NCBI GenBank assembly: GCA_902781745.1
Contig: CACZKM010000003.1
Span: 16,665 to 80,664 of the forward strand
Reading direction: 5' to 3'
Source of the DNA: Oscillospiraceae bacterium
GTDB lineage: Bacteria; Bacillota; Clostridia; Oscillospirales; Oscillospiraceae
DNA length: 64,000 nucleotides
The notes below the pieces were generated by a model. It was not told the DNA's origin. It searched no databases and saw nothing but the letters and a program-made list of their open reading frames with translations. Position numbers and translations under genes: made by a program. Positions 8,728 to 35,432 of the stretch are shown in pieces (within the stretch, counting starts at the first letter, position 1; every line of letters begins with the position of its first letter).

Positions 8728-8785
8728 ATCGCTCGCTATCGTCAGTAATATGTTTTTCTTTTGTTACGCAGGTGCTGACCGCTGC

Positions 8786-8963
8786 GTTTCCACCTCATCC
8801 GACCTCGCTTCGCTCGGCCACCTATGGTTTATGGTGGATTCGCCTGGATTTAACCGAACAGTCCCCCGGACTGTCCGACCCTCAAGGGGAAGGCTTTGAG
8901 AACGGCACTTTCCGCCTTCCCCTTGAGGGGAAGGTGCCCCGAAGGGGCGGATGAGGTGGAAAC
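8786..8963. repeat. 178-bp intergenic element with 16-bp terminal inverted repeats
   Basis: GTTTCCACCTCATCCG at 8786-8801 is repeated in perfect inversion at 8948-8963. Inside are further palindromes: the 23-base CGAACAGTCC/GGACTGTCCG type at 8855-8877, and CTTCCCC/GGGGAAG arms near 8910-8930. Related pieces recur at 34.88-35.06 kb and 44.5 kb. There is no coding potential, so it looks like a non-autonomous mobile or REP-like element lying between miaB and mutS. Confidence 0.75.
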
Positions 8964-10536: not shown

Positions 10537-13500
10537 TTATTCCTTAGGAATCTTCGGATAAATCGAAATGTGACCATCCTTGCCATATTCTATATGATGC
10601 GTTAAGGCGGTCTCACCGTTCTCTGTCCAGTGAATATCGGTCAAGTTGCCATTTTTATTATAGGTGTAGCTGGAATATCCAAGAGAACTGCCCATAGAAG
10701 TAGCTGATTGTTCCTTGATCTTTGAAAGAGAACCGTCTTTATTATAGACATACTCATGATGCATTTCTTCTGATGTCCACTTACTCACGGAGGTGTATGT
10801 ATCAGAAATCAATTGACCGGAAGCATTATAATGATACTGACGTATCTGCTCATATTCATCATTTTCTGGTGAAAAATCCTCTGTCAAAATATTGCCATGT
10901 CCATCATAGTCTACTCGCTTTTCACAGTAACCATCATTGTACCAAAGAACAGTTTTTATATCGCTGTAGTTAATTGCATATGCGGGAATAGTTCCATTAA
11001 TTATCATTGTAGTCCCGGACTTATCATAGGAAATTGTGCTCAAATCTGTATTTTGACCTTGGATGTATTTCCCAGTTCCGCCATCATCAAGATAATAGTC
11101 GTGGGTTTCACATTGAACCAGCTTTCCGGCTTTATCATACGTCAGTGTAGCAATTTCATAACCGATGTAAGTGTAATCCCACCAATCACCAAACTGGTCT
11201 TCAGTTCCCCTATATGTCTTTATTTGCGTCAGCATTCCCTGAGAATTATATGTAAACTCAGATACGAGGAACGCATATGGATTTCCCCAGTAACCAGAGT
11301 ACACCCTTCGGAATGGCTTTCCAGAGGAATCATATTCAATGTAAGCATTATCTCCTGCAACAGGGAGCACCCGTCCTGCTTTTGCGCTGTCCCCAGATGC
11401 TGCGGGCGTTGTCGTTTGCTCCGTCTTTTCAGGTGCCGGCTCCTCCGCTTTTTTGATCGTCAGATTGAGAATGCTGGCTTTTCCTGTCACCGTAAACTCC
11501 ACGGGTTCCGCCCGCAGGCCGCTTCCGCCCTGCTCGACGGCGGTTACCACATAGGAGCCGTTGTCACAATAGGCTGTAAATTGGCCGGAGCCGTTGACGT
11601 TCCCCGCCGCCGGGACTTGGTTTGTGCCCTTTGCCGTGATCTCCACCAGAGCTCCGGTGATAGGAGTATTGTTCTGGTCCTTTACGTTTACAGTCACAAG
11701 ATACTGCTTATGGGGGCACTTGCCCCAGCCAAATTCCACCTCGCTCCGGTCATTGGCAAAAGAGATATAGAACTCTCTCAGCTTGAGCTTTGCGCTGGCG
11801 GGCGTTATCTCGAAGATGGTCCAGGAGTAATCATCGGAAATGCCGATCTCACAGAGAACACTCAGCTTGAAATAGGCGGAGAGATCCCCGTCGATGCATA
11901 CTGCGCAAAGATGTTTAACTTCTTTGTCGGTGCTGATTCCAATGCTATCACCGGTGCCGCCGCTGATTTCGATGCCGCCCTCTCCCTCCAGGGTAAGAGT
12001 CAGCACCTTGAGAACTCGGACGGTAGCATCTACGCCTAAGCCGGCCTTTCCAGAGAACGCCCCACCCAAGGTTGCGGACAACTCTGCATTAGTTTCCTTG
12101 ATTTGCTGCGTTTTTCCACCGCTCCAGATTGTCCCGTTTTCACTGGTGATTGTGGCAGTAAGTTTGCCTTGCACATCTGCTTTGAATTCGCAGATGAAGT
12201 ATGCGTTGAACTCTGCGTTTATTCCGGTGGCAATGGGGACGGGGATTTTGGGAGTATCCTTCCGATAGGAAAGTGCGTCACCCGTGATCTTCTTTTTTAC
12301 GGACGCTTCAAAAGTGGTCTCAGTTTTGACACTGGCTTTGATCTCATTAATATCAAAAATCGTCTGGTCATACTGGATTTTAATGGAAAGGGTAACTTTT
12401 GCTTCTGCACTGTAACCGAAGGAACCACCGTTGTATTCCGTCTTCAAGGTCTGGCTTGCCGACCCTTCCTTGGCTTTCATAACCGAGGACGTGACGGCAG
12501 GCAGATCGACCGCGTCGGTAATCATGCCGGAAGAGGCATATACCGGGATGTCAGGTGCTACTTCAATCTCAGAAACAGGGGAATACATTGCTGCCACATC
12601 CCCACTGCTCTCAGAGAGAGGCACCTCCATATCAATGTCTATATATTTGAAGAAGTCAGAAAGCTCTGCTTTACCCTCGGTGATGGTCGCGGTGGAGTCA
12701 TCTATTGTAATAGAGCCGACCTTTAGCAGGATATAATCATCCGGCTTTGTGCCGTAGACATGGTAAAACACATCCCCGTTTTGCAGTTCTGAAATCTCCT
12801 TGTCAATATTATTAAACACATATATGCCATTTTCTTCATCTTTGCTTACCAGGTGGTTCTTTCCCGCGGAGGACTCGGTGGAAACAGTGTCATCCTTCAA
12901 TACAGCAAAGTTTGTTTCCTTCGATTTGTCAAAATTGATGATCTCGTCTCCCTTGAAATCGTCCACATCTTTTTCCTTAAAGGCGAGATATGCTTCCGCG
13001 TTTTTGTTAAAGCGCATCAGGATGGTGGCAACCTGAGCCCGAGTGGCAGTCCCGGCAGGGGAGAGTTCCGTAGCCGAAACACCAGAAATTATTTGCGATC
13101 CCACGGCCCATTTGACCGCTGGCTCTGCCCAACTGCTGATTTGGGCAGCATCACTATACCCGGTCAGAGAGACCAGATCATCCGTATCATACTGCTTATA
13201 AGCGGCATATCGATAAAGGATCGTAGCCATCTGCTCTCTGGTTATATTACTGTCGGGAGCAAAGGTTGTGGCCGAGGTCCCGGATACAATCTGGTTGGTA
13301 GCTGCCCAGGTGATGGCCTTTTCATAGTAGCTTCCAGCCTCCACATCGGTGAATGGACAGGCAGTGGAGACGGAGGGTGTGTTCTCCAGCCGATACAGGA
13401 TCGTAACAATCATACCTCGAGTCGTTTTTCCATTCGGACTAAAGGTGCCCTTCCCTGTGCCGTTCATGAAACCGTTGGTATGTGCGTATTGAACCGCGCT

Positions 13501-13623
13501 GTAGTACCAAGCGTCCGGGCTTACGTCAGAAAAGGGCTCCGCCGCCAATACAGACATTGGAAGAAGCCCTAGTGCAAGGCACAAGACCAATGCCACACTC
13601 ACTAATCGTTTTCTCATTCTCAA
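10537..13623 (-). CDS. secreted SLH-domain protein with YD-like repeats
   Basis: The 1028-residue product has a signal peptide (cleavage after SVLA-AEP, about residue 28). Three SLH repeats follow (FSDVSPDAWYYSAVQY, FTDVEAGSYYEKAITW, YSDAAQISSWAEPAVKW; about 30-210), which should anchor it to cell-wall polysaccharide. Then come a long beta-rich region, a carboxypeptidase-regulatory-like domain (VNVKDQNNTPITGALVEI, about 665-740) and C-terminal YD/RHS-like repeats (LTYDKAGKL, YDGHGNI, YHYNASGQL, YTYNKNGNL; about 800-1015). Much of the gene is richer in A+T than its neighbours. It lies behind the conserved attenuator leader also found before two other YD-repeat genes here. Function unknown; adhesion or surface interaction is inference. 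Confidence 0.85.
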   Translation of the reverse strand: MRMRKRLVSVALVLCLALGLLPMSVLAAEPFSDVSPDAWYYSAVQYAHTNGFMNGTGKGTFSPNGKTTRGMIVTILYRLENTPSVSTACPFTDVEAGSYYEKAITWAATNQIVSGTSATTFAPDSNITREQMATILYRYAAYKQYDTDDLVSLTGYSDAAQISSWAEPAVKWAVGSQIISGVSATELSPAGTATRAQVATILMRFNKNAEAYLAFKEKDVDDFKGDEIINFDKSKETNFAVLKDDTVSTESSAGKNHLVSKDEENGIYVFNNIDKEISELQNGDVFYHVYGTKPDDYILLKVGSITIDDSTATITEGKAELSDFFKYIDIDMEVPLSESSGDVAAMYSPVSEIEVAPDIPVYASSGMITDAVDLPAVTSSVMKAKEGSASQTLKTEYNGGSFGYSAEAKVTLSIKIQYDQTIFDINEIKASVKTETTFEASVKKKITGDALSYRKDTPKIPVPIATGINAEFNAYFICEFKADVQGKLTATITSENGTIWSGGKTQQIKETNAELSATLGGAFSGKAGLGVDATVRVLKVLTLTLEGEGGIEISGGTGDSIGISTDKEVKHLCAVCIDGDLSAYFKLSVLCEIGISDDYSWTIFEITPASAKLKLREFYISFANDRSEVEFGWGKCPHKQYLVTVNVKDQNNTPITGALVEITAKGTNQVPAAGNVNGSGQFTAYCDNGSYVVTAVEQGGSGLRAEPVEFTVTGKASILNLTIKKAEEPAPEKTEQTTTPAASGDSAKAGRVLPVAGDNAYIEYDSSGKPFRRVYSGYWGNPYAFLVSEFTYNSQGMLTQIKTYRGTEDQFGDWWDYTYIGYEIATLTYDKAGKLVQCETHDYYLDDGGTGKYIQGQNTDLSTISYDKSGTTMIINGTIPAYAINYSDIKTVLWYNDGYCEKRVDYDGHGNILTEDFSPENDEYEQIRQYHYNASGQLISDTYTSVSKWTSEEMHHEYVYNKDGSLSKIKEQSATSMGSSLGYSSYTYNKNGNLTDIHWTENGETALTHHIEYGKDGHISIYPKIPKE

Positions 13624-13702
13624 AATCCTCCTTCTGATCTTTTGTCTTCCCCCAGCATCCCGCGAGGGACCCCCGCCTCGCTTCGAGCCGGAAGGGAAAA
13701 AA

Positions 13703-13968
13703 CAAAAAATGCCGTGTGGGTATGACCCTACACAGCATCAGAAGGAAAATTCTGTATGCATCACCCGGCCCTGCCGCGCATAGCCTTTCGGATACGACAA
13801 TTAGCCCGTCCGCCACAAGCCTCCCCAAAGGGAAATGCTTGCAAAGGGGCCGGGTAAACGGTATAATCGTCCTATGCGGTGCGGCGTAAGCCGTTGTGTA
13901 GGTGGTTGGACACCCATGCAGGCGCTCGGGGGGCCTAATCCCCGCGCGCTGCCGCATATTTTGTTTTC
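13703..13968 (-). promoter_or_regulatory. conserved structured leader with attenuator (copy A)
   Basis: The RNA read from the promoter at 13975-14003 first folds a multibranched domain. Its closing stem ATGCGG/CCGCAT joins about 13952-13957 to 13874-13879, and an inner stem GCGC-x-CGGGG with an 8-base loop is enclosed. A hairpin GCATACAG...CTGATGC (13735-13759) comes later and overlaps by four bases the 5' arm of an intrinsic terminator (13703-13738, U-run at 13703-13708). The terminator lies about 80 bases before the gene start. Copies B (23.9 kb) and C (18.1 kb) keep the same order with compensatory base changes. I cannot match it to a known riboswitch class. Confidence 0.75.
13839..13867 (+). 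promoter_or_regulatory. antisense promoter-like sequence within leader A
   Basis: TTGCAA (13839-13844), 17 bases, TATAAT (13862-13867) on the forward strand, opposite to the gene. Reading from here would give an RNA of about 90 bases over the structured domain, ending at ATTTTGTTTTC near 13957-13967. It recurs in copies B and C, but could be a by-product of conserved leader sequence. Confidence 0.45.
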
Positions 13969-13974
13969 TTCATT

Positions 13975-14003
13975 ATTTTACCAAAGGTTGACCCAGGATG
14001 CAA
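13975..14003 (-). promoter_or_regulatory. promoter of the SLH/YD-repeat gene (copy A)
   Basis: On the reverse strand TTGCAT (13998-14003), 17 bases, TAAAAT (13975-13980). Copies B and C have TTGCAT-17-TATGAT and TTGCGC-17-TAAAAT at the same place, with unrelated spacers ending in TGG. Conservation of the boxes but not of the spacers is good evidence that they are used. Confidence 0.8.
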
Positions 14004-14096: not shown

Positions 14097-14369
14097 TCAT
14101 ACAAATTCGATTTTCAGCTTTTTTCCCAGCCCGGCGGCCAGCCGCGCCAGGGTGGTGACGGTGGGGCTGGTGACGCCGCTCTCGATGCGGCTGATGTTGG
14201 ACTGCCGGATGCCGGTCCGCTCTGCCAGCTCCTTCTGGGTCATGTTCTGCTCGATCCGCCCGCCGATGATGGCCCGGATGGCCTCATACTCCGGGCGGAG
14301 CCGTTCGTATTCCGCGGCAAATTCGGGGTCTTGGAGCCAACGGTCCAGGTGTTCGGTGAAATCACTCAT
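14097..14369 (-). CDS. HigA-type antitoxin / XRE helix-turn-helix protein
   Basis: This 90-residue protein has a C-terminal XRE HTH, MTQKELAERTGIRQSNISRIESG, and ends TTLARLAAGLGKKLKIEF, the usual HigA-type finish. The ATG at 14369 is preceded by GAAAGGAGG. In complete loci this antitoxin follows a RelE/HigB toxin and represses the operon through its HTH. Here the toxin frame in front is only 48 codons long, so the antitoxin is orphaned from a working partner at this site. Confidence 0.85.
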   Translation of the reverse strand: MSDFTEHLDRWLQDPEFAAEYERLRPEYEAIRAIIGGRIEQNMTQKELAERTGIRQSNISRIESGVTSPTVTTLARLAAGLGKKLKIEFV

Positions 14370-17986: not shown

Positions 17987-18015
17987 TTGCGCTTTTCGGC
18001 AGGCTCTGGTAAAAT
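17987..18015 (+). promoter_or_regulatory. promoter of the YD-repeat gene (copy C)
   Basis: TTGCGC (17987-17992), 17 bases, TAAAAT (18010-18015), in the position of the promoters of copies A and B. The stretch 17820-17985 before it shows a GC-rich palindrome near 17846-17865 but no gene. Confidence 0.75.
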
Positions 18016-18021
18016 ATGTAC

Positions 18022-18290
18022 GAAAACAAAATATGCGGCAGCGCCCGGGCTCGCACACCCGGACGCCTGCACAGGTACTTACACTACCTACACAACGGCC
18101 ATACAGCCGCACCGCATGTGAGATATTATACAGTTTCCGGGCCCTATTGCAAGCGTTTTGGCGGGCAAGCCGACCGGCGGCTGTGTTTTATTGTTGTCCC
18201 CTGAGGGAAGCATGCGGGCTGCATGGTCCAGTGTGCATACAGTTGCCCAACTTCTGATGCCGTGTAGGACAGACCTGCATGGCATTTTTT
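18022..18290 (+). promoter_or_regulatory. conserved structured leader with attenuator (copy C)
   Basis: It shares AAAACAAAATATGCGGCAGCGC with copies A and B at its 5' end and the ACCTACACAACGGC and GCCGCACCGCAT blocks. The inner stem is CCGGG/CCCGG here, against CGGGG/CCCCG in A and CAGGG/CCCTG in B. The GGTA/TACC stem replaces GGTG/CACC. Both are paired changes that keep the fold. The terminator at 18257-18290 has a 12-bp stem (ATGCCGTGTAGG with CCTGCATGGCAT) and TTTTTT. The gene starts 80 bases later. Confidence 0.75.
18125..18152 (-). promoter_or_regulatory. antisense promoter-like sequence within leader C
   Basis: On the reverse strand TTGCAA (18147-18152), 16 bases, TATAAT (18125-18130). 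It matches the antisense boxes in copies A and B although the spacer sequence differs. Confidence 0.45.
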
Positions 18291-18370
18291 GTTTTCCTCT
18301 CGGGTCTGAGGAAAGCGGTCGGGCCTTTCTTCGGGTGCCTGGGGGAGACAAACAGAAGGAGGGAACTTTT

Positions 18371-19633
18371 ATGGGAAGAATGGGGAAAAGGCTGCTGGCG
18401 GTTTCACTGTCGCTGGTGATGGCGGCGGGGGTACTGCCGGGGACGGCGGGGGCGGTTCCGATCCATAGCACGATTCCGCCTGATAATGGCATACCAGAAG
18501 AAGCAACCACCGCCTTTAATTACCGAACAAAACCAGATAAAAATGGAACCATATGGCTACTAACGGAGAAAGTTGTTGAAAGGGGAGATCTTGACGTTTT
18601 TGTTCAAGATGGTACTTTTCAAATAGAAAACTTTACGCATGATGTCTTTCTCAGTTTCTTCGATCCCTCTGGAGAATACGTATATACATATGACAATAGC
18701 GGAAATCTGTTGACAGAATCATATCCTACTACATATGACGGATTCATGACACAATATGTATATACTCCAAACAACAGCGGAACACTAGCAAAAATGACAG
18801 GAACGCTACGTCAGTACGGCTCTGATGTTTCCACGGAGGATACTTATTCTTATGACAACAATAATAGTTTAATAAAAGTACAGCATGACGAAAGCTCTTC
18901 GGGTTATACATTTAGTGCCATCACAACATTTACTTACGACGGAAATGGAAGGCTTTCATCTGTATCAGGATATACGGAAAACAGCAGTACACCTGAGTAC
19001 ACTATTACATATTTCTACAACGAAGACGGGTCATATTCCTCAAAGTTTGTTTCTTCCTCCACGACCTCAGAAAGCAGTTACGATAAATACGGAAACATCA
19101 TTAACCCGACTTACAGCTACTCTTATGACTCTGAAGGGCATTTATTACAAGTAATAAGGAATGGAAGCTTGTATGCTTCGTTTGCCTATGACAAAGCAGG
19201 AAACAAGTCAACCGAATATATCGATTATTCTGATAGCTGGGATTGCACTTTTACATATAGCTATGATAAATACAATAATCCCACAAAAATCGATGTTGTT
19301 GGTAAGGACAAATCCGATAAATCGGAATCCAAAATCAGTATCTCCTTAAAATATGTTCCTTACTCCCCTCCGCAAACCGGCACCCTCGGACAATCCGACG
19401 AAATCAGCTGGACTTTCGCTCCTGACACTAACACCCTGACCCTCACCGGCGACAGCGTCAGCGACACCGCCCCCGTGATCGCCGCTGGCTATAAAGCCTC
19501 CGGCCAGATGCTCTTCGCCACCCGCATCACCGCCCCCGGTATAACAAAACTTCCAAAGGACGCCGACCACATCAAACTCTTCTGGCTGGACCAGAACGGC
19601 AGACCGAAATGTGACTGCGCGACGATCAAGTGA
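18371..19633 (+). CDS. secreted YD-repeat protein
   Basis: The 420-residue product starts at ATG 18371 behind AGAAGGAGGG. A signal peptide (LLAVSLSLVMAAGVLPGTAGA, cut near residue 28) leads into repeated Tyr-Asp motifs such as YTYDNSGNLL, YSYDNNNSL, FTYDGNGRL, YSYDSEGHLL and FAYDKAGNK. The C-terminal segment WTFAPDTNTLTLTG resembles the start of bacterial beta-sandwich repeats. There is no SLH or LPXTG anchor, so it may be released. The middle is AT-rich, while the last 80 codons return to local GC-rich usage, suggesting a mosaic origin. It shares the attenuator leader with the two SLH/YD genes. Function unknown. Confidence 0.8.
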   Translation: MGRMGKRLLAVSLSLVMAAGVLPGTAGAVPIHSTIPPDNGIPEEATTAFNYRTKPDKNGTIWLLTEKVVERGDLDVFVQDGTFQIENFTHDVFLSFFDPSGEYVYTYDNSGNLLTESYPTTYDGFMTQYVYTPNNSGTLAKMTGTLRQYGSDVSTEDTYSYDNNNSLIKVQHDESSSGYTFSAITTFTYDGNGRLSSVSGYTENSSTPEYTITYFYNEDGSYSSKFVSSSTTSESSYDKYGNIINPTYSYSYDSEGHLLQVIRNGSLYASFAYDKAGNKSTEYIDYSDSWDCTFTYSYDKYNNPTKIDVVGKDKSDKSESKISISLKYVPYSPPQTGTLGQSDEISWTFAPDTNTLTLTGDSVSDTAPVIAAGYKASGQMLFATRITAPGITKLPKDADHIKLFWLDQNGRPKCDCATIK

Positions 19634-21808: not shown

Positions 21809-23767
21809 TTACTTCTGTTCACGATACAGGAAGGTCACCACCGCGCCGCGGGGGCAGTTGACCTTGGGGTTGGCTGTGAGGCCGGTGTCCTTGAGCAGCC
21901 CATCCTTTTCCGCCCAGGCTCCGGCATCCTCGTACCAGCCGTCGGCGCCGACTCCCATGGTGCGGTACAGGAAGGTAAGGATGTGGGCCGTGGAGCAGGT
22001 CTGCTTGGGGGCGAAGGCGTCCGCCTTGACGCCCACGGTGATCCCGTTTTCCACCGCCCAGAGGACTGCCTTGTAGAAGTAGTCGCTCTCCTTCACATCC
22101 TTGAAGGGGTTCGTCGTTGTGGTGGGTTCGGGCTCGCCCTTGGCCCGCCAGAGGAAGGTCACGGCTTCGCTGCGGGTGCAGGTGCCGTTGGGGACAAAGT
22201 GGGTGTCATCCACGCCTTGGGTGATCCCGTTGTCCGCAGCCCAGTAGACCGCGTCGTGATACCAGGCGTCCTTGGGCACATCCGTGAATCGCTCGTTGTC
22301 CGCCGGTGCCGGCTCGTTCTTGACGAATGCGGCCGTCACATTCACTTTGGAGCCGGGCATGGTGAAGCTGTAGGTGCCGTCGCCGTTGTCCTTGACCTCC
22401 ACGGGGCTGCCGTTCTTGTCGGTGACAGTCACCTTGTCCACCTTGCAGCCCTCGTCCGGCTTGGGGGTGATGGTGACGGTCTTGCCCTGGGCGGCGTTTT
22501 TAGGGCTGACGGTCACGGAGCCGTTGTCCGTCTTGCTGGGGGTGCTCACCGCATAGCTGGTCGCGCCGCCGCCGCTGCCACTGCTACCGGAGGACTGGGT
22601 CTCGGTCCATTGGGCGTAGAGAGTGGTGTCGCCGGTGACCACGTAGGTGTCGAAGGAGACCTTGTAGGCATCGTTCAACTCGTCCTTCCAGTACCAGCCG
22701 ACAAAGTCGTAGCCGCGCTTGCTGGGGGCAGTGGGCTCCTTGGCGTAACCGTTCTCGGCAACGGTCTGGGCCTCGGGCTCAGGGGATCCGCCGTTGGGGT
22801 CGAAGGTGACATTGTAAGTGGGAGTTTCAGGATTGGAACCGGTTTTAAGCGGTTCATATTTCATGGTAAGAACAGTGGTACCTTGGTTCTCGCCGTCATT
22901 ATAATTAATTGCACATTTTGAGACATTTCCATTCTCGTCATATGTGTAGGAATACACTGTTGTACTTTTGTAGGAGTTCTCTGAATCATTACGGTTGTAT
23001 TCCATAGAAAGCAAATTGTTGTTAGCATCATATGTATAGTTATATGTTTCGTTGAATATCTGTGTTTCCCGTGTCGTTTCCTGGGTCCATGATGTAATAT
23101 TCCCGTTTGAATCATATGTTAGGGTACTGTCTGCCGATACGCTTGCTGTTCCATCTTTATTATCAGTATAGGAGAGCGTATACACATTCCCCAAATCATG
23201 GCCAGTTCCTGTGGCTGAAATACCCAAAAGAAGACCATTGCTATATGTGAAAGTATATGTTGCTTCATTTGAATAAAGCGGACTCTCTTGGTTGTATTTT
23301 GCAGATTCAATCTTTCCATCAGTATTCCAGACAACCGAGGTGCTCGAACTGCCAGTCTCATAAACTTCAGATATGGCTATAGGATTTCCATTCTGGTCGT
23401 AAGTAAAAGTTAGTGTACTATCTGACAGTTCATCGTCACCTTTGACTTCTACGGACAACAGGTTTCCATTATCATCATAGGTATACCGCGAAACCGCACC
23501 GTTGTAGCCATAAATTGGTCTTCCGTTTACCAAAAAACGTGAGGCGACAGGCATATCAGGATACAGCGGTATCATATTGTAGAAGAAATCTGTGTTTCCT
23601 TGGATTGATACTTCTGTCATCAGCCAAATTGTTCCGCCTTCATTCGCCTCTGCTTTGCAATGATTTAGTTCACCACCTGGTTCAATCTTTACCGCCCCCG
23701 CCGTCCCCGGCAGCAGCGACAGAGCCAGCATCACTGCCAGCAAACACGCCAATACTTTTTTCGTCAT
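21809..23767 (-). CDS. secreted protein with YD repeats, InlB repeats and SLH domains
   Basis: The 652-residue product has a signal peptide (cut after AGA, about 25). Four or more YD-type repeats follow (YTYDDNGNLLS, FTYDQNGNPI, LTYDSNGNI, YTYDANNNLLS, YTYDENGNV; about 90-305). Then come an InlB-type B-repeat (VTFDPNGGSPEPEA to LYAQW, about 320-390), a divergent InlB repeat (about 405-480) and three C-terminal SLH repeats (FTDVPKDAWYHDAVYW, FKDVKESDYFYKAVLW, DAGAWAEKDGLL; about 490-650). It should be wall-anchored through SLH. The YD part is AT-rich, the SLH part GC-rich. It shares the attenuator leader. Function unknown. Confidence 0.85.
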   Translation of the reverse strand: MTKKVLACLLAVMLALSLLPGTAGAVKIEPGGELNHCKAEANEGGTIWLMTEVSIQGNTDFFYNMIPLYPDMPVASRFLVNGRPIYGYNGAVSRYTYDDNGNLLSVEVKGDDELSDSTLTFTYDQNGNPIAISEVYETGSSSTSVVWNTDGKIESAKYNQESPLYSNEATYTFTYSNGLLLGISATGTGHDLGNVYTLSYTDNKDGTASVSADSTLTYDSNGNITSWTQETTRETQIFNETYNYTYDANNNLLSMEYNRNDSENSYKSTTVYSYTYDENGNVSKCAINYNDGENQGTTVLTMKYEPLKTGSNPETPTYNVTFDPNGGSPEPEAQTVAENGYAKEPTAPSKRGYDFVGWYWKDELNDAYKVSFDTYVVTGDTTLYAQWTETQSSGSSGSGGGATSYAVSTPSKTDNGSVTVSPKNAAQGKTVTITPKPDEGCKVDKVTVTDKNGSPVEVKDNGDGTYSFTMPGSKVNVTAAFVKNEPAPADNERFTDVPKDAWYHDAVYWAADNGITQGVDDTHFVPNGTCTRSEAVTFLWRAKGEPEPTTTTNPFKDVKESDYFYKAVLWAVENGITVGVKADAFAPKQTCSTAHILTFLYRTMGVGADGWYEDAGAWAEKDGLLKDTGLTANPKVNCPRGAVVTFLYREQK

Positions 23768-23857
23768 TTTTAAGATTCCTCCTTCTGAAATATTTTGTTC
23801 TCCCCCAGCAATCCCGCGAGGGACCCCCGCCTCGCTTCGAGCCGGATGGGAAAAAAC

Positions 23858-24122
23858 AAAAAATGCCGTGTGGGTATGACCCTACACAGCATCAGAAGGA
23901 AAATTCTGTATGCGTCACCCGGCCCTGCCGCGCATAGCCTGACGGATACGACAAATACGCCGTCCACCGCAAACATCCCAAATGAGAAATGCTTGCAAAG
24001 GGGCCGGGTAAACGGTATAATCGTCCTATGCGGTGCGGCGGAAGCCGTTGTGTAGGTGCGGTGTCACCCATGCAGGCGCTCAGGGGGTCGGAGCCCTGGG
24101 CGCTGCCGCATATTTTGTTTTC
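23858..24122 (-). promoter_or_regulatory. conserved structured leader with attenuator (copy B)
   Basis: It is nearly identical to copy A over about 265 bases. The closing stem lies at 24105-24111 with 24028-24034. The inner stem is CAGGG/CCCTG and the tetraloop hairpin GGC-GGAA-GCC. The terminator at 23858-23892 (U-run at 23858-23863) matches copy A exactly. The gene starts about 90 bases after the terminator. The 420-bp gap holds nothing else but the ribosome site of the forward dipeptidase gene. Confidence 0.75.
23993..24021 (+). promoter_or_regulatory. antisense promoter-like sequence within leader B
   Basis: TTGCAA (23993-23998), 17 bases, TATAAT (24016-24021). In this copy the forward dipeptidase gene lies 165 bases downstream, so this promoter could also drive that gene. 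Confidence 0.5.
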
Positions 24123-24128
24123 AGGAAC

Positions 24129-24157
24129 ATCATACCAAAACCCGACATAGAATGCAA
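24129..24157 (-). promoter_or_regulatory. promoter of the YD/InlB/SLH gene (copy B)
   Basis: On the reverse strand TTGCAT (24152-24157), 17 bases, TATGAT (24129-24134), at the same distance from the structured domain as in copies A and C. Confidence 0.8.
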
Positions 24158-24186
24158 GGGAAAAATCAAAAGGAGGCACCCGCTCC

Positions 24187-34475: not shown

Positions 34476-35432
34476 AGTACCTACAGAGATACCGTTGGGT
34501 ACTCAGCAATCGTTGCTGGGTGGGTGGGGACGTACTATCCTTACCGTCTGTACGCCTACTGTTACGCGCCAGGTGTAGGGCTGCCACCCTACCGGGGTCG
34601 AACTGTCCGGGGGACAGTTCGATTCAATCCAAGGCGAAGCCACCTTGATTTCTGCGCTGCCCGCGCAGGGCCCGGCTTTTCTGGAAAAGCCGGGGGAAAA
34701 GCACCAGAGGGCTGCGGCCCTCTGGACTCCGGGGACTCGTGGAGTATCCGCCGGTCGTCGCTCGACACACGCCATGTGGTCGCTGGATGTTGCCGCCTGC
34801 AACTGTTTTTGTGTTTGGTTGTTGAGATTTGGATTATGTGGGGATAGTAGCCCTTTGTGTCTGGAAAGGACCACACAAGAGCCTTCCCCCTGGGGGGAAG
34901 GTGCCCCGAAGGGGCGGATGAGGGGGAGGTTGAAGGTCAGAGCGCGGTTTCGGTGGAAGAACGAGCGCAGGTCGTTTTTTCGGTGCGTGGCTACTGCCCT
35001 TGACGTTTCCACCTCATCCGACCTCGCTTCGCTCGGCCACCTTCTCCTCAAGGGGAAGGCTCTTTACACGCTTCTTCATTGCAACAAACAGCAACTATCC
35101 CCACAAAATCCAGTATTCATCAACCTAACTTCGATGCGTCGGAGACCCAAAGAACCCGCACCACATCAGTACGGGTGCAGCGCCCCCCGAAAGCAGAATA
35201 TCCAATCGACGCGAGCGCCCATAAACAGGGGGTCCAGGGGGAACCCCCTGGCGTTTTCCCCCGGCTTTTTCGGAAAAAGCCGGGCCCCGCCCGGGAGGGC
35301 GCCCGTCCGGCGAGGACACCGGCAGGGCGTTGCCCTAACAGACTACAAACCTGTAGGAGCACAGACGGTCAGGATAGAGCGCACCCGCCTAGCAACGATT
35401 GCTGAATGCTCAACGGTATCTCTGTAGGTACT
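34476..35432. mobile_element. 0.96-kb element with 49-bp imperfect terminal inverted repeats, no ORF
   Basis: AGTACCTACAGAGATACCGTTG and the following 27 bases (34476-34524) are matched in inversion at 35384-35432, 44 of 49 positions agreeing. The interior is a mosaic of palindromes: TCGAACTGTCC/GGACAGTTCGA at 34598-34622, GGCTTTT/AAAAGCC arms near 34675, CTTCCCC/GGGGAAG near 34882, and CACCTCATCCG near 35010. No reading frame has gene-like composition. It fills most of the remB-recF gap (34334-35497); the rest shows no gene. Confidence 0.75.

Follow-up and report, generated by a model that had tools for sequence, protein, structure and literature searches.

A leader family with probable countertranscript-driven transcriptional attenuation ahead of surface-protein and mobile-element genes of Oscillospiraceae and other Bacillota

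It has been described for a few plasmids that transcriptional attenuation can be controlled by an antisense RNA (available excerpts of PMC5703833 and PMC6540685). In pT181, when RNAI is on the leader a terminator-like stem forms, while without RNAI the 5' arm of this stem pairs with a pre-emptor (excerpts of PMC5703833). The antisense RNAIII of pIP501 likewise targets a leader, that of repR; its mode of action resembles that of pT181, and transcription is convergent (PMC5703833). An example outside replication control is Anti-Q of pCF10: this antisense RNA, whose promoter converges with that of its target prgQ, makes a termination structure form in the target transcript (PMC6540685).

Here we analyse a window of 64,000 nucleotides from an Oscillospiraceae draft genome (contig CACZKM010000003.1, positions 16,665 to 80,664), holding three leaders that appear to work by the logic of the pT181, pIP501 and pCF10 Anti-Q attenuators, yet match no Rfam family. 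The likeness to RNAI/repC lies in the predicted antisense-induced leader terminator and in the pre-emptor as its alternative (PMC5703833, in part); pT181, however, uses them for plasmid replication control, whereas the leaders described here precede surface and mobile-element genes, and differ further by a single antisense RNA predicted to fold as a four-way junction and by a co-varying helix between the 5' end and the terminator. As in pIP501, the antisense RNA would act on the leader from convergent promoters, but pIP501 works with the Cop repressor on plasmid replication; pCF10 concerns the conjugation control of a pheromone plasmid, in contrast to the many unrelated genes found here. An earlier, sequence-only reading of the window could assign no known class and had proposed a comparison with Rfam, in which the window gave no hits at the gathering score on either strand, to plasmid ctRNAs or any other Rfam family, and just two chance-level hits at E up to 5; the same search on 20 other loci returned two tRNA hits and nothing else. 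Our literature search, with most subscription papers and preprints outside its coverage, showed, among the titles listed, none describing the leader family.

What is established below from the sequences is the anatomy of the leaders, its conservation, the covariation and the strand asymmetry. We consider it very probable that each copy is a countertranscript-driven transcriptional attenuator, in which an antisense RNA sets early termination, and the likely signal is this RNA rather than a metabolite. Antisense attenuation of the plasmid type would then be found as a large genomic family acting on surface proteins of gut bacteria and on recombinases and transposases, from which genes set by the RNA/antisense ratio could be predicted locus by locus.

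Anatomy of the three leaders in the window

In the whole host genome (2.05 Mb, 89% complete) the covariance model matches three copies, A (13697-14003, minus strand), B (about 23750-24166, minus) and C (about 18004-18352, plus). All three are built alike: a sigma-70-like promoter is followed by a 5' domain, a spacer and an intrinsic terminator, beyond which lies an RHS/YD-repeat gene whose start resembles a signal peptide. The features are as follows:

Copy A, 13975..14003, minus: sense promoter TTGCAT-17-TAAAAT, start predicted at about 13968-13970
Copy A, about 13875..13956, minus: multibranched 5' domain (helices P1-P4), complementary to the antisense RNA
Copy A, 13891..13904, minus: segment X (CACCUACACAACGG), candidate anti-terminator (pre-emptor) strand
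Copy A, 13839..13867, plus: antisense promoter TTGCAA-17-TATAAT
Copy A, 13874..13970, plus: predicted antisense RNA, four-way junction and U-tract (AUAUUUUGUUUU)
Copy A, 13697..13739, minus: intrinsic terminator, whose 5' arm (13727-13739) includes UGUGUAGG, complementary to X
Copy A, 10537..13617, minus: downstream gene with signal-peptide-like start, SLH and RHS/YD repeat
Copy B, 24129..24157, minus: sense promoter TTGCAT-17-TATGAT
Copy B, 23993..24021, plus: antisense promoter TTGCAA-17-TATAAT
Copy B, 24028..24124, plus: predicted antisense RNA
Copy B, 24045..24058, minus: segment X
Copy B, 23851..23893, minus: terminator
Copy B, 21809..23767, minus: downstream gene with RHS repeat, Flg_new and SLH
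Copy C, 17987..18015, plus: sense promoter TTGCGC-17-TAAAAT
Copy C, 18125..18152, minus: antisense promoter TTGCAA-16-TATAAT
Copy C, 18022..18118, minus: predicted antisense RNA
Copy C, 18085..18098, plus: segment X
Copy C, 18256..18295, plus: terminator
Copy C, 18371..19633, plus: downstream gene with RHS repeat and signal-peptide-like start

The promoter, the multibranched 5' domain, the hairpin and the intrinsic terminator of copy A, as described in the sequence-only reading, were all confirmed, and its claim of three such layouts in the window agrees with B and C and with the count for the whole genome. The paired changes that it quoted, CGGGG/CCCCG, CAGGG/CCCTG and CCGGG/CCCGG with 8-base loops, as well as GGTG/CACC against GGTA/TACC, are correct. 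The antisense promoter inside leaders A, B and C had escaped it. The statement that the layout occurs only before YD-repeat genes holds within the window, where Pfam identified RHS_repeat downstream of A, B and C (and SLH downstream of A and B), but not in the relatives, in which other downstream families are present. The 277-nt leader of copy A folds at -123.3 kcal/mol (z -6.1), a value reached by 0 of 200 shuffles, and its terminator folded alone has a z of -5.3.

Some further elements were noted in the window. An additional small hairpin (GCAUACAGAA...UUCUGAUGC) overlaps the terminator 5' arm in A (13734-13758) and in B (23888-23913, both on the minus strand), and inspection by eye shows comparable hairpins in some of the relatives but not in others. 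A HigA/XRE-like helix-turn-helix gene, identified by eye, ends a short distance upstream of copy A (14120-14300, minus). Dispersed repeats join 8756-8823 with 34975-35042 (81% alike) and 8914-8960 with 34881-34927 (94% alike).

Segment X, the terminator and the predicted antisense RNA

For the comparative analysis a covariance model, R1, was built on 15 copies and searched against genomes sampled at the family, order, class and phylum level; 166 model hits were collected, of which 158 distinct copies, from 115 genomes, were kept. The consensus of segment X is CACCUACACAACG, which matches by complementarity the terminator 5' arm located downstream. In 134 of the 158 copies there is a U-tract and, before it, an arm that fits X with -8 kcal/mol or better; since shuffled 320-nt regions average -9.2, this cut is lenient, and the case for X therefore rests on the U-tract context and on tests of own against foreign segments. 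Duplexes formed with the copy's own X reached -10 for 129 of the 151 copies, compared with 44 of 151 with shuffled DNA, and they were better than the mean of foreign X segments, again, in 129 of 151. Moreover, in the 95 copies whose X departs from the consensus, the own X was the better partner of the arm in 74, the consensus X was so in 16, and the two were equal in 5, with X and the arm changing together as CUCAUAC/GUAUGAG in L070 and CUCAGCAC/GUGCUGGG in L072. A fitting terminator was missing in 24 of the 158 copies, in 5 of which this is explained by the less than 80 nt of sequence that follow. As in pT181, the target of the putative antisense RNA thus contains a pre-emptor able to pair with the terminator 5' arm.

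A further helix, P0, joins the two ends of the leader, the first bases of which match the terminator U-tract and the bases beyond it, as GGAUAACAAAA/UUUUGUUAUCC in L060; the own match exceeded the foreign mean in 115 of 134 copies.

Immediately beyond the 3' side of the 5' domain, the opposite strand carries a near-consensus promoter. Its best score was at least 8 of 12 in 156 of 157 copies; it occupied the same place in 153 of 157, and 126 copies had a spacing of 17. As sense, this stretch scored 6-7 in 127 of 157 copies, and shuffles averaged 7.1. The presence and place of the antisense -10 are partly built in, because it overlaps the last positions of the covariance model, while the -35 is outside it. 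A convergent antisense promoter within the leader, as in the attenuators of the pT181, pIP501 and pCF10 kind, is thus predicted. The transcript would be of about 97 nt, crossing the domain and ending at the complement of the A-rich first bases of the leader, which is a U-tract. For A, B and C the predicted structure of the antisense RNA is a closed four-way junction, with a folding energy of about -48 kcal/mol, compared with -38.7 for the sense counterpart in A; taken singly, these RNAs exceed shuffles to a moderate degree only (z -2.9, -2.6 and -3.9, respectively).

We infer, from the arrangement of these elements, that both RNAs are produced and that the antisense RNA triggers termination. 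The sense promoter would give rise to the leader of the surface-protein gene, and the convergent promoter inside it to the structured RNA, complementary to the first ~100 nt. In the absence of the antisense RNA, the nascent X (CCUACACA) would pair with the terminator 5' arm (UGUGUAGG) before the 3' arm exists, allowing read-through; with the antisense RNA on the 5' domain, X would be occupied, the terminator would fold and the gene would be off. Perhaps P0, pairing the 5' end with the U-tract and the following bases, stabilises the read-through state. When the nascent prefix up to the terminator 5' arm was folded, X pairing had a mean probability of about 0.76 and reached 0.5 or more in 107 of 133 copies; folding without the first 105 nt, which mimics masking by the antisense RNA, gave a mean of 0.86 for the terminator, which formed in 127 of 133. 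For the full leader at equilibrium, without antisense RNA, the means were 0.76 for the terminator and 0.13 for X pairing; since equilibrium favours the terminator, read-through must be kinetic. Copy C is weaker, with an X pairing of 0.27 in the prefix.

The antisense RNA could act, instead, mainly in trans as a small RNA, or convergent transcription could interfere, with the leader terminator being constitutive. The predicted RNA is compact, has its own promoter and a U-tract, and the converging promoters have predicted starts about 100 bp apart, as either mode of action would have it. Neither of them, however, requires the covariation between X and the terminator arm that is seen from copy to copy, nor that between the leader 5' end and the terminator tail, and we regard both as improbable.

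Strand of the conserved fold

The sequence-only reading had proposed a riboswitch or a protein-binding attenuator: the sense 5' domain would be an aptamer that on binding either exposes or hides X, and in this way decides on termination. The promoter, the conserved multibranch domain, the anti-terminator and the terminator are all present, and so is strong covariation, which that reading had named as a test in a wider alignment. In alignment A3, which was fitted to the model and has 83 distinct rows, 25 of the 26 pairs of P1-P4 change on both sides, and the covariation score is 0.533, compared with 0.139 for shuffled alignments. In an unfitted alignment of 15 copies 12 of the 26 pairs change on both sides, and one of five measures, that of further pair types, was not above shuffles (383 of 500 as high).

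The two strands of the core differ in stability. In every one of the 158 copies the antisense form of the core was the more stable one, and so it was in all 107 left after thinning; over the 158, the mean z was -4.0 for the sense and -6.0 for the antisense strand. The terminator showed the reverse, the sense strand being favoured in 123 of 134. Base composition accounts for about half of the raw energy difference of the core (mean 12.1 for real, 6.3 for shuffled sequences); the strand difference exceeded that of dinucleotide shuffles in 148 of 158 cores and 118 of 134 terminators.

The same asymmetry is seen in the single pairs. Among the non-Watson-Crick cells of the model helices, 199 are A·C, which become G·U as antisense, 63 are G·U in the sense strand and 60 are of other kinds; 29 of the 199 stem from one pair in alignment A4, and the excess is observed although the covariance model was built on the sense strand. 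In the P3 extension, defined as the six pairs outward from GGUG/CACC, only the first of which is within the model, 116 of the 158 copies could form 5 or more of the 6 pairs when read as antisense, compared with 7 of 158 when read as sense, and the G·U cells summed from the table were antisense-only in 261 cases and sense-only in 6. Since the extension is kept as antisense and not as sense, the X-containing stretch should be largely unpaired in the sense RNA; a long P3 closed by G·U in the antisense RNA, and broken by A·C in the sense RNA, would leave the CCUACACA-like X free.

Judged in this way, the strand on which the fold is conserved in the 158 copies is the antisense one, and a structured antisense RNA is predicted, complementary to the 5' leader, whose fold is conserved and strand-specific. 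A conserved aptamer fold on the sense strand, as a riboswitch would have, was not found. Of the earlier proposal, attenuation by a premature terminator stands, on the anatomy and the covariation, and the aptamer does not. Against an aptamer speak, besides the conserved pairs retained on the antisense strand, the antisense promoter at a fixed place, the lack of an Rfam class and the lack of a metabolic theme common to the listed downstream families; we give this explanation very little probability. Two strands of one DNA stretch would thus have different folds in a clear case of G·U wobble, and the same strand test could reveal the functional RNA strand in other 'orphan' structured leaders.

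Copies A and B differ in the 5' domain only in the P2, P3 and P4 loops and in the upper P2 stem. Diversification of the loops within genomes was considered as a sign of specificity and dropped, as over all compared pairs the loops diverge no more within genomes than between them. P2 loops occur in both orientations among the copies (e.g., L008/L005 and L013/L017), as exact or near reverse complements, as though the loop flips while the stem is constant.

Distribution and downstream genes

Among genomes drawn from the window's family, R1 at E up to 1e-3 found the leader in 125 of 400, in 43 of 106 genera and with a maximum of 9 copies per genome, and among those drawn from the order in 50 of 394, of which 30 belong to other families. 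At E up to 1e-4 it was found in 14 of 391 genomes drawn from the class (12 outside the family) and in 9 of 398 drawn from the phylum, the window's own genome included; other classes of the phylum also carry the leader family. In 16 remote loci from the class and phylum searches the antisense promoter scored 8 or more of 12 in all 16, two of them outside the usual register, and the duplex of X with the terminator arm was at -10 or better in 13, a count to be read without a shuffle control. When named genomes were scanned for the exact pattern, 64 stretches came up, by title mostly from Oscillospiraceae, Oscillibacter, Flavonifractor and other Clostridia, Evtepia gabavorous KLE1738 and Oscillibacter valericigenes among them; a single Acidobacteriia contig looks like chance. 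No viral contig matched the exact pattern. With copies from other genomes as queries, the plasmid collection gave no match to L052, L242 or L247, and the phage collection one partial match, at 72%, to L052 and none to L242.

Among the 117 downstream proteins compared with Pfam, the 25 families listed of 75 include SLH (26), Cu_amine_oxidN1 (11), LRR_5 (9), phage integrase (7), resolvase (4), RHS_repeat (4) and RCC1 (3), and no Rep family is among these listed matches. The mixture of families suggests a module used both by secreted or surface genes and by genes of mobile elements. A signal-peptide-like start was found in 64 of 137 downstream ORFs by a crude rule biased in its favour. Single Pfam checks left 4 of 9 downstream proteins without any match. 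Directly downstream of its copy, L054 has a TnpB-type OrfB_IS605/Cas12f1-like protein (248-1354); the gene directly downstream in L052 (1767-2423) has no Pfam match and, by eye, an N-terminus like that of the L054 protein. In L102 a short protein with weak helix-turn-helix matches follows.

The SymE family is under antisense-RNA control in E. coli, and in the type I system SymR/SymE the antisense RNA lies opposite the 5' part of the mRNA, acting on translation and mRNA stability; it is not known to work via a leader terminator. The predicted antisense RNA described here likewise faces an mRNA 5' part, and the remote copy in L247 precedes a SymE_toxin-family gene (1862-2119).

Tentatively, and with more doubt than confidence, the leaders could be seen as portable antisense-RNA attenuators of one old family, a plug-in that does not depend on the gene behind it and that has spread across the phylum by moving between mobile elements and surface genes. 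Strand-specific wobble coding would let one DNA stretch yield an antisense RNA that is closed and a sense target that is open, and the sense/antisense ratio, by which each copy would set its gene, would lead to cell-to-cell ON/OFF differences of the surface coat. That the module is, instead, a mobile inverted-repeat (MITE-like) element, with ends resembling an RNA stem by chance, is hardly credible, as the several copies per genome, the inward reading AAAACAAAA-TGC of both ends and three copies of one relative at contig ends are to be weighed against ends that vary between copies yet match within each copy, and against promoters, P1-P4 and terminator arm that are conserved too.

The three copies of that relative, G029, are within tens of bases of the contig termini (L009 and L017 at contig ends, L019 at a contig start), which is what would be expected if the module sits in a mobile element present in several copies, at which the assembly breaks off.
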